From positions 1,240,001-1,304,000 of the forward strand of contig NZ_CAKAKH010000001.1 in the NCBI RefSeq assembly GCF_916618885.1: a stretch of 64,000 bases of DNA. Reading direction: 5' to 3'. The notes under the pieces are model-generated. The model had not been told where the DNA came from. It searched no databases and saw nothing but the letters and a program-made list of their open reading frames with translations. The position numbers and the translations under genes were made by a program. This document shows, piece by piece, positions 10,225 to 15,720 of this stretch (position 1 is the first letter of the stretch; every line of letters starts with the position of its first letter). This DNA is from Marinilactibacillus sp. Marseille-P9653. Lineage in GTDB: Bacteria; Bacillota; Bacilli; Lactobacillales; Carnobacteriaceae_A.

Positions 10225-12039
10225 TTGACTAGGTCATTTTTCTTTAAAAGGTTATTGTCCTATTTAATTAAACTAAAACACACTGATAGTCAGGGGGTAG
10301 TTAGAATAGTTAAATTTAGAAAAATCATTATTATTTTTAATTTTTTAGTTATTCTGACACTTCTAGTCCAGTTTGTTTCACCGGTTATTGCGGAGACGCT
10401 TAATCGAAGTGATGCTGAAACGGAAGAAATTCAGGATGATGAATCTGAAGTCTTAATGGAGTCTGAGGAATTAGACACTAGAGACAAAGTCGTTGACAGT
10501 GAAGTAGAAGTAGAAGAAATCGAACAGATAAGTAATGAGGTCGAAGAACCAACATCAGAGCAAGAACCAGAGCAAGAATCAGAACAAGAAGCTATAGAAG
10601 AAAACGAAATATTTTCTGAAGGGGTTATTGAAGAAAGTCCTATTTCACTATCCCGAGCAGCAGCGGTTGACGCAGGAATATTAAATGGTTCGACACTATC
10701 AGTGACGAATACTAGAATAAACAATCAAGATAGAATTACGCTCACTTTAAATGGTACGGGTGTATTAGATCTTGCACTTTTAAGAACATCCACAATTATT
10801 TTTAATCTTCCACCAGAGCTTATGAATGGGATTGTAAATAGAACAGGTAGAACAGAAATTCCTAGACTTCTGAATTTGGGAACACAAAATATGAATTATA
10901 ATGCCAATCAAATTGGCTTAGATACAGTTAATGATCAAGTCTTCATAACGATGTCGACATCATTGCTTAATCTTAGTTTAGGTGGCCATTATACTTATAC
11001 AATTAATCTGTTCTATGATAGATTGCCACTCGTTAATAATGGAACCTATAACTTCAGTGCAGCTTTAGTTACAGGAGGCTCTATTTTAGACCTTGATTTG
11101 ATTAGTCAAAACAGAGATACCGCAACTTTACAAGTAACAAATCCGACGGTACCACCACTAACTTTCACCACACCAATATTTTCAACAGATGGTACGATTC
11201 GTGGAACTGGAGTACCAGGCTATACAGCTAGGATTACAGTAGGAGGACAAACTTTCACTTCAGTAGTGGCCGCTAATGGAACTTTTTCAGTAGATATTGG
11301 AGCTCGTGAAGCGGGAACTATTATACGTGGGATACAAGTTAGAGAAAACGTTTTATTGAGTTCTGAAATCACTACTACAGTTATTCAAAGGCCAAATCCA
11401 CCGAATTTACTAGAGATTTATGATCAAGATACAGTGGTCAGAGGAACAGCGCCCCCTTACACTACAGTTCTGCTGACTATTGGAACTCAATCTTACTCAG
11501 GTCCTGTTGGTAACGATGGAACTTTTGCAATTAATATTCAATCCGCTCGAGCGGTAGGTACTCAAATTTCCGCTGTGACCATTAACGCTCAGCAACATTC
11601 CAGTTTACCAGGCGGTGGGATCGTGCTTGCAAGTGCACTATCTTTAGTATCAGTTCCTGAAACTATGCCTTTTGGTACACATAATTTAGAAAATGTTGGT
11701 TCGTTAATGCCTTTGGATGATTCTAGTTGGGCTATTGGAGTTCAAGATACTCGCGCGACAGGTAGTCGTTGGCGATTGGATGCTACTTTGGCGCACCCAC
11801 TAAGAGCCGGAACGATGCAGAGCGAATTGCCTGAAGCGTTAGTTTTCGTTGATCAAAATAATCAAGTGACGCCATTATCAAGTTCAGCATTAACGGTTTT
11901 TTCCGGAACGACCACCTCTAGGGAGCCAGTGAATATATCCTGGCCAACAAATAGAGGGCCGATGCTTCAAATAGTACCAGAAGCTATGGCAGACACTTAC
12001 AGTACAACTATTACCTGGACACTATCAGATGTCCCTTAA
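10225..12039 (+). CDS. WxL-domain surface adhesin with acidic stalk and Ig-like repeats
   Basis: This secreted cell-surface protein (604 aa as drawn) has a hydrophobic signal segment (about residues 32-54, ending VSPVIAET). A Glu-rich, low-complexity stretch follows (about 60-135), then an adhesin-like beta-rich domain (about 145-305). Two Ig-like repeats with the pattern GTG.PGYTARITVGGQ / GTAPPYTTVLLTIG span about 315-475. The C-terminal WxL domain has its two signature motifs, W516-R-L and W598-T-L. WxL domains bind peptidoglycan non-covalently. The TTG at 10225 lacks a ribosome site; AGGGGG at 10292-10297 sits eight bases before an in-frame ATA at 10306, which would give an ordinary signal peptide starting MVKFRK. 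First gene of a three-gene locus. Confidence 0.82.
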   Translation: MTRSFFFKRLLSYLIKLKHTDSQGVVRIVKFRKIIIIFNFLVILTLLVQFVSPVIAETLNRSDAETEEIQDDESEVLMESEELDTRDKVVDSEVEVEEIEQISNEVEEPTSEQEPEQESEQEAIEENEIFSEGVIEESPISLSRAAAVDAGILNGSTLSVTNTRINNQDRITLTLNGTGVLDLALLRTSTIIFNLPPELMNGIVNRTGRTEIPRLLNLGTQNMNYNANQIGLDTVNDQVFITMSTSLLNLSLGGHYTYTINLFYDRLPLVNNGTYNFSAALVTGGSILDLDLISQNRDTATLQVTNPTVPPLTFTTPIFSTDGTIRGTGVPGYTARITVGGQTFTSVVAANGTFSVDIGAREAGTIIRGIQVRENVLLSSEITTTVIQRPNPPNLLEIYDQDTVVRGTAPPYTTVLLTIGTQSYSGPVGNDGTFAINIQSARAVGTQISAVTINAQQHSSLPGGGIVLASALSLVSVPETMPFGTHNLENVGSLMPLDDSSWAIGVQDTRATGSRWRLDATLAHPLRAGTMQSELPEALVFVDQNNQVTPLSSSALTVFSGTTTSREPVNISWPTNRGPMLQIVPEAMADTYSTTITWTLSDVP

Positions 12040-12085
12040 CTTGTGATTCAACTATAAAAACTACATTCCTTGAGGAGGAAAAATA

Positions 12086-12685
12086 ATGAATTTAAAGAAG
12101 AAAATGATTAGCGGTTTAGGATTAGGATTATTACTAGGAGCAATTTCACCAATCGTGGCTCAAGCTGCAGTTGTAGACACGGATACGACTGAAGCAACTG
12201 TAACATTCGAAGGTGGAGCTTTGGACTTAGTTGATGCTCCAACAGCAATCACTTTCGGTACGGTTGATTTATCAGCTGATGAAGAAACTTATCTAGGTGC
12301 TAGTGTTGCTACAGCGGATGACAATGGATTTCTTGAAGTAGCTGATTCAAGAGGAAATCAAGAAGGATGGCATATCGTCGCTTCTATGACAGGTTTCACA
12401 CAGGACGGAGAACCTTCACTACCAGGAAGCACACTTACTTTTGTTGTACCAGATTTTGATACTACCAGTACAATTGCTGAAACTACACCAGTATTAAGTG
12501 GGATGACAATTAGTGCTGATGCTACTGCTATACCAATTAATGCATTGGCTGGAACGGGTATGGGACGTTCATTCTATGATTGGACGACTGAAGGAGATGT
12601 AGAACTATTTGTACCTGCTGGAGCTGGAGAAGCTGGTACTCACACTGCAACAATTACTTGGTCATTAGATGACACACCATCTTAG
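12086..12685 (+). CDS. WxL-domain-only secreted protein
   Basis: The 199-aa product has a clear signal peptide (KKK n-region, LGLGLLLGAI core, cleavage after AQA) and then little but a WxL domain. The proximal motif is the variant W95-H-I in EGWHIVASM, and the distal motif is ITW192SL near the C-terminus. The mature protein is acidic and threonine-rich. GAGGAGG precedes the ATG. It lies 46 bp after the large WxL adhesin gene and overlaps the next gene. It should be exported and held on peptidoglycan, perhaps in complex with its two neighbours, as in enterococcal WxL clusters. The ligand is unknown. Confidence 0.85.
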   Translation: MNLKKKMISGLGLGLLLGAISPIVAQAAVVDTDTTEATVTFEGGALDLVDAPTAITFGTVDLSADEETYLGASVATADDNGFLEVADSRGNQEGWHIVASMTGFTQDGEPSLPGSTLTFVVPDFDTTSTIAETTPVLSGMTISADATAIPINALAGTGMGRSFYDWTTEGDVELFVPAGAGEAGTHTATITWSLDDTPS

Positions 12686-13727
12686 GAATATAAACATTGT
12701 AAGAGGATTCAAATGGGTATTTATACTCGGGCGCATATTACTTTTTCGGGCTCCGAATGTAGCTCATGCAGAAGACGGCGTAGCTTTTTCTGTAAAAGCG
12801 GTGATACCTAAAAACCAGCATGATTTGAATCAATCTTACTTCGATTTACGAGTAGAGCCCGGACAAGTTCAAGAAGTGGTAACGATGATATTGAATAGGA
12901 GCGATAAAGAAATTATTGTTGATGTCGCGCTAAACGACGCATCAACAAATAGGAACGGCGTGATTATTTATGATGACCCAGAAGCTGTTGTTTATCGTGA
13001 AGATGCATTAACCGATTTCGCAATGTTGGAACAAACTGAAGTAACGGTTCAGCCCGGAGAAACAGAATCAGTGTTTGCGACGATATCAGTACCAGAAGAA
13101 CCTTTTGATGGAGTCGTTCTTGGAGGTCTTCGTTTTCAGGAAAGAAGAAACGTTAATGACGAAGAAAGTGAAGGCGTAGCAATCCTGAATGAATATGCCT
13201 ACGTTATTGGATTGCAGTTATCTCAAAATGATTCGGAGCTGGAACCGCTGATTGAATTAACAGACGTTGAACCTGGTTTATCTAATAGTAGAACGGCTGT
13301 TATCGCAACATTAAAAAATATGCAGCCTATGATCTTGAGAGACCTTGCGATTACTGCTGAAGTTTATGAAGGTGATACGCTAGTCAAAACGGCTTCAATG
13401 GAAGAAGTAAGAATCGCTCCTGAGTCTTCTATGGATGTCGTAATCAATTGGGAGAATTATGCGATTGAAGCTGGTGATTATAGTGTTGAACTAACAGCCT
13501 CAAGTGAACAAGGCGAATGGACTTTCAGTGAAGCATTCACGATTACTGAAGAAGAGGAAGAAGAAGCGAACGAACAAGCAGTTGTGATCGTGGAGAATAC
13601 GTCAAATCAGAACCCTGATAATATGATGCCACTGTACTTTATTATCGTAGGATTGTTTGTAGTAGTCAGTATCATGCTGATTTATATCATTAAAACTAGA
13701 ATGAAATTAAAACATGAAACACAATAA
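12669..13727 (+). CDS. WxL-interacting protein, DUF916 plus DUF3324
   Basis: This 352-aa membrane-anchored protein has an N-terminal signal segment ending VAHAED. The DUF916 domain (about residues 35-160, beginning FSVKAVIPKNQ and containing YFDLRVEPGQ) is followed by DUF3324 (about 165-295). A C-terminal membrane helix (about 315-340) and short basic tail complete it. Such proteins bind WxL domains and help attach WxL complexes to the cell surface. The ATG at 12669 overlaps the previous gene by 17 bp with no good ribosome site, so translation is probably coupled. The n-region is unusually rich in His, Asn and Arg. It closes the WxL locus. Confidence 0.88.
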   Translation: MTHHLRNINIVRGFKWVFILGRILLFRAPNVAHAEDGVAFSVKAVIPKNQHDLNQSYFDLRVEPGQVQEVVTMILNRSDKEIIVDVALNDASTNRNGVIIYDDPEAVVYREDALTDFAMLEQTEVTVQPGETESVFATISVPEEPFDGVVLGGLRFQERRNVNDEESEGVAILNEYAYVIGLQLSQNDSELEPLIELTDVEPGLSNSRTAVIATLKNMQPMILRDLAITAEVYEGDTLVKTASMEEVRIAPESSMDVVINWENYAIEAGDYSVELTASSEQGEWTFSEAFTITEEEEEEANEQAVVIVENTSNQNPDNMMPLYFIIVGLFVVVSIMLIYIIKTRMKLKHETQ

Positions 13728-13732
13728 AAATA

Positions 13733-13778
13733 AGCCTGTTATAGTAGAGGGAACTCTTACTATAGCAGGCTATTTTTT
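13733..13778. terminator. Bidirectional terminator of the WxL locus
   Basis: A long stem (13733-13771) combines AGCCTGTTATAGTA with TACTATAGCAGGCT and an inner GAG/CTC around a GGAA tetraloop, followed by six T. It lies between the WxL locus and the convergent DUF4153 gene. Confidence 0.87.
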
Positions 13779-15579
13779 AATCCTTTAAGCTAACTAAAAG
13801 ATACAAACTACCGGAATAGGACTCATTGTCTAACAGCTCAATATTATCAAAGATAACAGTCAAGGTAACTTGATTATTATTTTCAACAAAAGTTAAATCA
13901 GACGCTGAAAGATCTTGAATCGTATCATAGAATTCAAAGTTGTCTTCTAACATAAAGGATAAATCAAAGTTTAATATGGTTTCATTATCTGTAGTGTTCA
14001 AATCAAGTTCGAAAGCATCCTCTTCTGCTGTCGCGACCAAGTTGTACTCATCGTTTTCAATTTGAAAGGCTGTCTCTTGAGCACTTGGCTGTACATATTG
14101 ATCATACGAAAATGGAACAATCATTAATTGATCGATGTCAGTAGTACTAAAGGAGATAGTCTGCCTTTTATCCAATTGTAAACTCGTATAGGCTGGATTG
14201 TAAGTTTCATCGATAGTCGAGTCATCTTCATATTGAGACGGATACTGGTCAAAACCGAATACCGATTCAAAGTTTTCTCCGTAAAACTCGAAGTTATCAG
14301 GCAACCAGTCAATGCGATTCAAAGCGTCATAATCAGATAAATATTGAAGACTATCTACAATGATTTCACGGTCTTCGAGACTCACATCTGACTTACCAAT
14401 GATGCGGTTATCTTCCAACATATTATTCTTTTCAAGTAAGGACTCTAATTTTGATATCTGTGCATTAATCCCAAGGGTCATAGCATCAATGGGTGGAACA
14501 ATTGATAGGATTGTCAAAATGATAAACACTACTGGGACATATTGCTTTTTGTTTTTAGAAAAACTATAAAGCAGACTGGAGATAATTGAGAATAGACCGA
14601 ACAATATTACGTAATACCGTCCATGAGTTAATCCAAGTTGTTGGATTTTGATCAGAGAAGCGACTGTTTGAAAAATTGCTATAACCAAAAGGACTTTGGG
14701 AAAAATCAATTTAAAGTAATTTGTACTATTATTATCTATAGTATGTGAGATAAACAAAGTGATAAATCCAATGATGGCATAACTGATTAATAAAGGCTCG
14801 AGTAAATTATCGAACCAGAACTCCCCAGCAAGGTTAGGAACGATATATAATACTAAAATTAATGTATAGGCAGTAAGTAAAGGGATCACGATGTATGAAA
14901 TTAAGAAACTCAATAACTTTGGAATAGATAGGGAAGTTTGGTCTTTCTTTGATTCCAAGCCTTTCACAAGATTGTAATTAGGAATATAGGATAAGAAACA
15001 CATCGGCGCAAATAGACCGAATATGATTGCAGCTAAGTCTCCAAATATCTCAAAATTCACTTCGGATATTAAAAATCCATAGGTTCCAACAATTGCAAAC
15101 GAACCAATGACTAAGACCATAGAGTATAGGAAACTGGTGAAAAAAGCTTTAAATGCAACAGTAAAGGCTAAGTCAAAAGGCACGATAGACTTTAATGTAG
15201 GTACCCAGACATAAGCTGTCAAGGCAGCGGCGACAAGCGCGCTGGATCTTATGGCGACGATAGAGCTGTAATATGGATAACTTCGAAGAAAGAAAATATA
15301 ATAAATCATGGTGACAATGATAGAAATGATATATAGCCCTATTCGAAGGAATGGCTTTCCGCTGAAAAATCGTTCATAAAAAGATTGACTAACTGCCGCA
15401 AGCAGTCCTCCGATTGCATAAGCTAAAATCGGATTCTGATATACTTCAGAGAAATTTGAATGATTCGTTCTAATCATAAATACTGTTGAAAGAAGGAAAA
15501 ATAAAAAAGAAACTGGATAACGTACGAGTGATTGATTGAGAATGCCTAATTTGGAGAAACTATTTTCCATGAATTTCAT
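13777..15579 (-). CDS. DUF4153 polytopic membrane protein
   Basis: This 600-aa protein has roughly ten to twelve hydrophobic helices in its first 370 residues and a soluble, acidic, probably extracytoplasmic C-terminal region (about 375-600). The arrangement fits DUF4153, a widespread Firmicutes membrane family without established function. GGGAG sits four bases before ATG 15582 and seven before ATG 15579, so I prefer the latter. It converges on the WxL locus and shares its terminator; whether it takes part in WxL surface assembly is unknown. Confidence 0.75.
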   Translation of the reverse strand: MKFMENSFSKLGILNQSLVRYPVSFLFFLLSTVFMIRTNHSNFSEVYQNPILAYAIGGLLAAVSQSFYERFFSGKPFLRIGLYIISIIVTMIYYIFFLRSYPYYSSIVAIRSSALVAAALTAYVWVPTLKSIVPFDLAFTVAFKAFFTSFLYSMVLVIGSFAIVGTYGFLISEVNFEIFGDLAAIIFGLFAPMCFLSYIPNYNLVKGLESKKDQTSLSIPKLLSFLISYIVIPLLTAYTLILVLYIVPNLAGEFWFDNLLEPLLISYAIIGFITLFISHTIDNNSTNYFKLIFPKVLLVIAIFQTVASLIKIQQLGLTHGRYYVILFGLFSIISSLLYSFSKNKKQYVPVVFIILTILSIVPPIDAMTLGINAQISKLESLLEKNNMLEDNRIIGKSDVSLEDREIIVDSLQYLSDYDALNRIDWLPDNFEFYGENFESVFGFDQYPSQYEDDSTIDETYNPAYTSLQLDKRQTISFSTTDIDQLMIVPFSYDQYVQPSAQETAFQIENDEYNLVATAEEDAFELDLNTTDNETILNFDLSFMLEDNFEFYDTIQDLSASDLTFVENNNQVTLTVIFDNIELLDNESYSGSLYLLVSLKD

Positions 15580-15720
15580 CATAAAACTCCCTTAACGCGT
15601 TTATTTTAGTACAGCTAAGAATACTGTTATCATAATGTAAAAGACCTAAATTGACAATCGTTTTCGTGGACATACAAATTAATGGTGAAGTAAATTTTTA
15701 GTAAATAAGTAAAAAGTTTT

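Follow-up and report, generated by a model that had tools for sequence, protein, structure and literature searches.

A three-gene csc/WxL surface locus of ordinary, already described form in Marinilactibacillus sp. Marseille-P9653

Three neighbouring genes in a 64,000-nucleotide stretch of the genome of Marinilactibacillus sp. Marseille-P9653 (the window) are a real csc/WxL surface locus in its ordinary, already described form. They are the three genes of an earlier note on this sequence, intact open reading frames (ORFs) all on the plus strand between positions 10225 and 13727, and encode a large WxL protein (604 aa), a small WxL protein (199 aa), and a WxL-interacting protein (WxLIP; 352 aa). 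The genes are adjacent and co-oriented, their frames are open across 1155 codons, and the small WxL and WxLIP ORFs overlap by 17 nt. We consider it very likely that this is a csc/WxL locus cut down to the published three-protein core, with a membrane-held WxLIP and with the WxL proteins on peptidoglycan, and that it is ancestral in the genus with later loss. The features are listed in Table 1.

Table 1. Coordinates of the WxL locus features in the window and of remnants in related species.
Feature	Position	Strand	Basis
Large WxL protein (LWP/CscC type)	10225..12039	+	ORF from TTG; Pfam Big_6, sub-threshold WxL; large-WxL profile, 190 bits
Shine-Dalgarno-like AGGGGGT, 8 nt before ATA 10306	10292..10298	+	GGGGGTG at the equivalent spot before ATC in M. 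kalidii
Signal peptide of large WxL protein, residues 28-56 of the TTG-based ORF, ending SPVIA before ET	10306..10392	+	Sequence, hydropathy, M. kalidii alignment
Acidic low-complexity N-terminal segment	10393..10659	+	Composition
Beta-rich N-terminal domain (approximate bounds)	10660..11154	+	No Pfam match; AlphaFold2 strands, mostly of moderate confidence
Two Ig-like (Big_6) repeats (bounds of the first approximate)	11158..11610	+	Pfam, NCBIfam
Large-type C-terminal WxL domain (W-R-L 11770-11778, W-T-L 12016-12024)	11620..12036	+	Pfam sub-threshold; profile; order-wide matches; 9i25_A
Small WxL protein (SWP/CscB type)	12086..12685	+	Pfam WxL; motifs; alignment with relatives
WxLIP (CscA type): DUF916, DUF3324, and C-terminal transmembrane helix	12669..13727	+	ORFs; Pfam; EfmWxLIP1 similarity
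WxLIP transmembrane helix, followed by the tail KTRMKLKHETQ	13635..13691	+	Hydropathy
Terminator-like hairpin after WxLIP, before the convergent 601-aa gene	13733..13771	none	RNA fold -28 kcal/mol, z -7.2
WxLIP C-terminal remnants in two species without the locus	L055:5725-5943 and L057:12155-12566

The 604-aa protein was matched by Pfam Big_6 (53.5 bits, two stretches, the best at residues 390-462) and, under the respective cut-offs, by NCBIfam Ca_tandemer (43.3 bits; cut-off 50) and Pfam WxL (21.7 bits; cut-off 25). Among the large proteins of other trios, the Pfam WxL score was above the cut-off for M. kalidii (29.5 bits) and Alkalibacterium (26.9 bits) and below it for E. crotali (17.8 bits); with trio proteins on either side of the cut-off, the 604-aa protein was examined further. 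Its last ~139 residues (~466-604) are a large-type WxL domain, with W-R-L at residue 516 and W-T-L at residue 598. The protein was matched in 112 of the 395 genomes of the order, and among the matches listed most fall in the final ~140 residues, with some in the Ig-like repeats; its C-terminus is similar to the C-termini of large proteins in other Lactobacillales. A seven-row large-WxL profile, which includes this same sequence, scored it at 190 bits, and a search of the PDB with the profile retrieved chain 9i25_A, a 'WxL domain surface protein' (1.7e-11), from an entry whose chain C is EfmWxLIP1. On the strength of the order-wide matches, the profile, and 9i25_A, what the earlier note had called a stalked adhesin with two Ig-like repeats is a large WxL protein: the two repeats were recovered as the Big_6 stretches, and the 'stalk' has to be read differently. 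This acidic segment (residues ~57-145, with 28 Glu and 6 Asp among 88 residues counted) is N-terminal, and since the protein is anchored at its C-terminus, the segment would be the distal tip rather than a stalk.

Neither AlphaFold2 model was confident, with a mean pLDDT of 54 for a fragment of the large protein (three sequences) and 65 for the small WxL protein (seven sequences). Foldseek matched the former to many multi-domain Ig/Fn3 proteins, with the Bap BSP domain first (E 9e-13) and no query TM-score above 0.30 in the list of 50. A PDB sequence search with the same fragment gave a single weak match, to an ice-binding adhesin repeat (E 0.0015). We take the model to show only an 'Ig-like' protein resembling tandem Ig-like adhesins such as Bap, and nothing finer. 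The small WxL model had no match among PDB structures at E ≤ 0.001, and a search of the PDB with small-WxL sequences found no convincing relative.

The 199-aa protein consists of a signal peptide and a WxL domain only (Pfam WxL, 92 bits), with two motifs, W-H-I at residue 95 (12368-12376) and W-S-L at 12659-12667. Its description in the earlier note as a nearly bare WxL domain was borne out. The W-H-I had also been pointed out there as a variant; the alignments show W-Q-V in M. kalidii, W-Q-I in Bhargavaea, and W-H-V in a Bacillus MAG, so that this is ordinary variation, and we rejected W-H-I as a special feature. The second motif is W-x-L across the small-WxL alignment except in the divergent row of Enterococcus sp. 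HY326. A Pro/Asp-rich linker is present in the other five aligned rows and absent from the window and M. kalidii proteins.

In the 352-aa protein, Pfam found both DUF916 and DUF3324 (now WxLIP_PGBD and WxLIP_HBD), in agreement with the earlier note. Its relative EfmWxLIP1, for which structures 9i1y and 9i25 are available, was matched at 111 bits (9i1y). PF06030 (DUF916) also exceeded its cut-off in the control genome of Thermotoga maritima, and the WxL family did not. Hydropathy placed a C-terminal transmembrane helix in 32 of 33 WxLIPs compared, followed by a tail of net positive charge in 31. A stop-transfer anchor in a bacterial membrane usually looks like this, with positive charges behind the helix. 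This pattern argues against the proposal in PMC10599100 that the helix inserts into the host-cell membrane instead of the bacterial one, the trio being otherwise the same. The authors of that paper reason that nothing outside the wall can reach the bacterial membrane; passages of PMC1534035, on the other side, read the helix as a bacterial membrane anchor, and we regard insertion into a host membrane as very improbable.

Signal peptides were judged by hydropathy and layout rather than by a signal-peptide program. Those of the large and small WxL proteins are clear, and that of the WxLIP (12669-12780) is interrupted by arginines and has the weakest N-terminal hydrophobic segment of the 33 compared (1.88 vs 2.30-3.63). 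These features suggest that export of the WxLIP could be impaired. By eye, the window has ATA (12690) where the M. kalidii gene has its ATG start.

The model preferred here, with a WxLIP anchored in the membrane of the bacterium itself, follows parts of PMC10599100, PMC9772566, and PMC1534035. The three proteins would be exported by Sec, as their signal peptides suggest, and the C-terminal helix and positive tail would retain the WxLIP in the membrane while it reaches into the wall. Its DUF916 domain may clasp WxL domains, a role suggested by homology to two molecules in 9i25 and by the published model, in which the small WxL protein would sit on peptidoglycan, as would the large protein through its C-terminal WxL domain. 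The Ig-like repeats, the N-terminal beta domain, and the acidic tip would project outward to a putative ligand, for example a polysaccharide or host matrix. In E. faecium, according to passages of PMC5341603, SwpA and DufA bind collagen and fibronectin.

No sortase partner is encoded at the locus. Within the trio and in the gaps to the adjoining genes, no ORF of 80 aa or more encodes a short LPxTG protein (CscD), and an LPxTG partner at the locus was rejected. The genome (2.55 Mb, 99.8% complete) has one sortase (PF04203) and two LPxTG proteins (PF00746), the latter at C1:301 kb and C1:352 kb; all of these lie elsewhere, far from the WxL locus at 1.25 Mb. The protein at C1:352 kb (L021:1-1626) is LPQTG-anchored and, from its look, presumably glycosidase-like. 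A genome-wide search with PF13731, PF06030, and two home-made profiles found no WxL or WxLIP gene beyond the two WxL proteins and the single WxLIP of the locus, which answers the earlier note's proposal to look for other WxL loci; PF13731 alone detected just the small WxL protein. With no other WxL or WxLIP gene found in the genome, the locus is self-contained.

The earlier note's suggestion of a minimal self-sufficient complex is supported as to self-containment. That its minimality is new or remarkable is not supported, since the trio has been published and is found in relatives, and we rejected the idea of a newly minimal system on these grounds. Passages of PMC9772566 describe a large WxL protein, a small WxL protein, and a DUF916 protein as the apparently minimal organisation, add that most clusters also hold an LPxTG protein, and call a short LPxTG protein 'useful but not essential'. 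In the corresponding part of PMC1534035, csc clusters carry a short LPxTG protein, CscD, that is 'missing in a few clusters'. These four-gene clusters share CscA, CscB, and CscC with the window, which has no CscD. The absence here of a protein that is usual in both sources counts against the core-trio model. E. faecium locus C, one of the loci studied in PMC10599100, is predicted to hold the trio only, and thus matches the window locus in its protein types and in having nothing beyond them. The window differs from such trio loci in the N-terminal domains of its large protein, in its compact, linker-free small WxL protein, and in the probable non-AUG start of its large WxL gene.

We also surveyed 30 WxL loci, in a biased choice, using simple profiles and motifs to tag the ORFs. 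At 12 of them a short LPxTG protein was tagged in or beside the cluster (one more, in L013, looks alike and is untagged), and the earlier note's statement that clusters often have sortase-anchored partners is fair by this count and by the passages of PMC9772566 and PMC1534035. Bare trios were seen at seven loci (L018, L012, L015, L016, L017, L062, and L077), of which L015 and L016 have a different gene order; within the window's own family, five of the seven surveyed loci were bare trios. The large-small-WxLIP order recurs in M. kalidii, Alkalibacterium sp. AK22, and E. crotali, in the last of which it was seen directly. Lack of the short LPxTG partner is a known variant, in the minority or common depending on the source. 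A WxLIP was present in five of 27 genomes of the window's family and in 185 of 395 genomes of the order sample (178 over the cut-off). An initial contig search with the WxLIP alone gave no relative, and the collection of papers searched contained none on WxL together with Marinilactibacillus.

The ORF of the large WxL gene opens at TTG 10225, where the ribosome-binding site is modest (-6.8 kcal/mol, near the 10% level for random positions in the window). In M. kalidii, an in-frame TGA lies just 5' of the first TTG of the corresponding gene, and that TTG scores -1.6. Both genes carry GGGGGT, and 8 nt beyond it the window has AUA (10306) and M. kalidii AUC; the pairing energy is -11.4 in the window and -13.2 in M. 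kalidii. For comparison, -11.4 marks the 1% level of random positions in the window, the start of the small WxL gene has -11.5, and the first ATGs of 39 long window ORFs span -16.4 to +1.3. A signal peptide of normal layout starts at the ATA 10306 point. Judged from these two species, TTG 10225 is probably the wrong start and ATA 10306 a likelier one; the next codons score -11.5 (GTT) and -14.9 (ATT), and the energies leave the exact start codon unfixed. According to passages of PMC13009471, S. aureus has AUA and AUU start codons downstream of extended Shine-Dalgarno sites, which work at about 10% of AUG efficiency, and up to 30% for one. A possible reading, somewhat less likely than not, is deliberate throttling of the large WxL protein at translation, in the manner described there for S. 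aureus ccpN: a start at AUA (AUC in M. kalidii) following a strong, conserved Shine-Dalgarno sequence would keep the adhesin scarce and matched to the better-translated small WxL protein.

In M. kalidii (locus L012/L058) the trio occupies the same site, between SDR/AKR/GT2 genes and 601-aa/beta-galactosidase genes, with the same order and flanking genes and with proteins 39-56% identical to those of the window. On other contigs M. kalidii, unlike the window genome, has two additional WxLIP genes and more WxL genes. The trio is gone from the other three of the five Marinilactibacillus species searched, two of which keep WxLIP C-terminal remnants. One site (G002) has a 73-residue remnant (42% identity, E 9e-9), and another (G003) a shorter one with the transmembrane helix, which is 80% identical over 41 bp to the G002 remnant and 75% over 44 bp to the window; at the third (G004), the genes on either side are just 136 bp apart, and no match to WxLIP was seen. 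In an unrooted tree of three flanking proteins, these three species stand apart from the window and M. kalidii with a support of 1.0. From the shared site, the remnants, and this tree, the common ancestor of the five species most likely already had the trio, which was then lost once or more. Passages of PMC1534035 record one csc cluster that is missing as a unit in three of 20 strains.

The gene adjoining the WxL site in all five species (13777-15582 in the window) encodes a 601-aa, membrane-like product, with 43-49% identity in the other four and no Pfam match at E ≤ 1. A promoter scan gave 20 promoter-like sites vs 24.0 in shuffles. A catabolite-repression (CRE) pattern matched four times in the 64-kb window vs 5.5 by chance, with no match near the WxL locus.

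With the trio absent from three of five species, early decay in the window strain itself has to be weighed: the locus would be open yet decaying, with poor WxLIP export and no good start for the large WxL protein, and the complex would be weak or non-functional and heading for the loss seen in the genus. The weak WxLIP signal peptide, the absence of a strong ribosome-binding site at any ATG, GTG, or TTG start of the large WxL gene, and the block loss with remnants elsewhere in the genus all fit such a course. Against it, the three frames have stayed open despite their divergence from the M. kalidii proteins, and the strong ribosome-binding site without a standard start codon is common to M. 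kalidii, which suggests an older state and not a fresh loss. We therefore judge decay in this strain unlikely, and prefer an intact core trio that the genus had at this site from its ancestor and that was lost, with decay, in three of the five species searched.

If the AUA/AUC start is true, a surface adhesin would join the genes limited by non-AUG initiation. As the only WxL locus in its genome, with no other WxL or WxLIP gene found that could compensate, the trio is suited to deletion work. A whole WxL module can also vanish in nature, as the three Marinilactibacillus species without it indicate, two of them with scraps of the WxLIP still in place.
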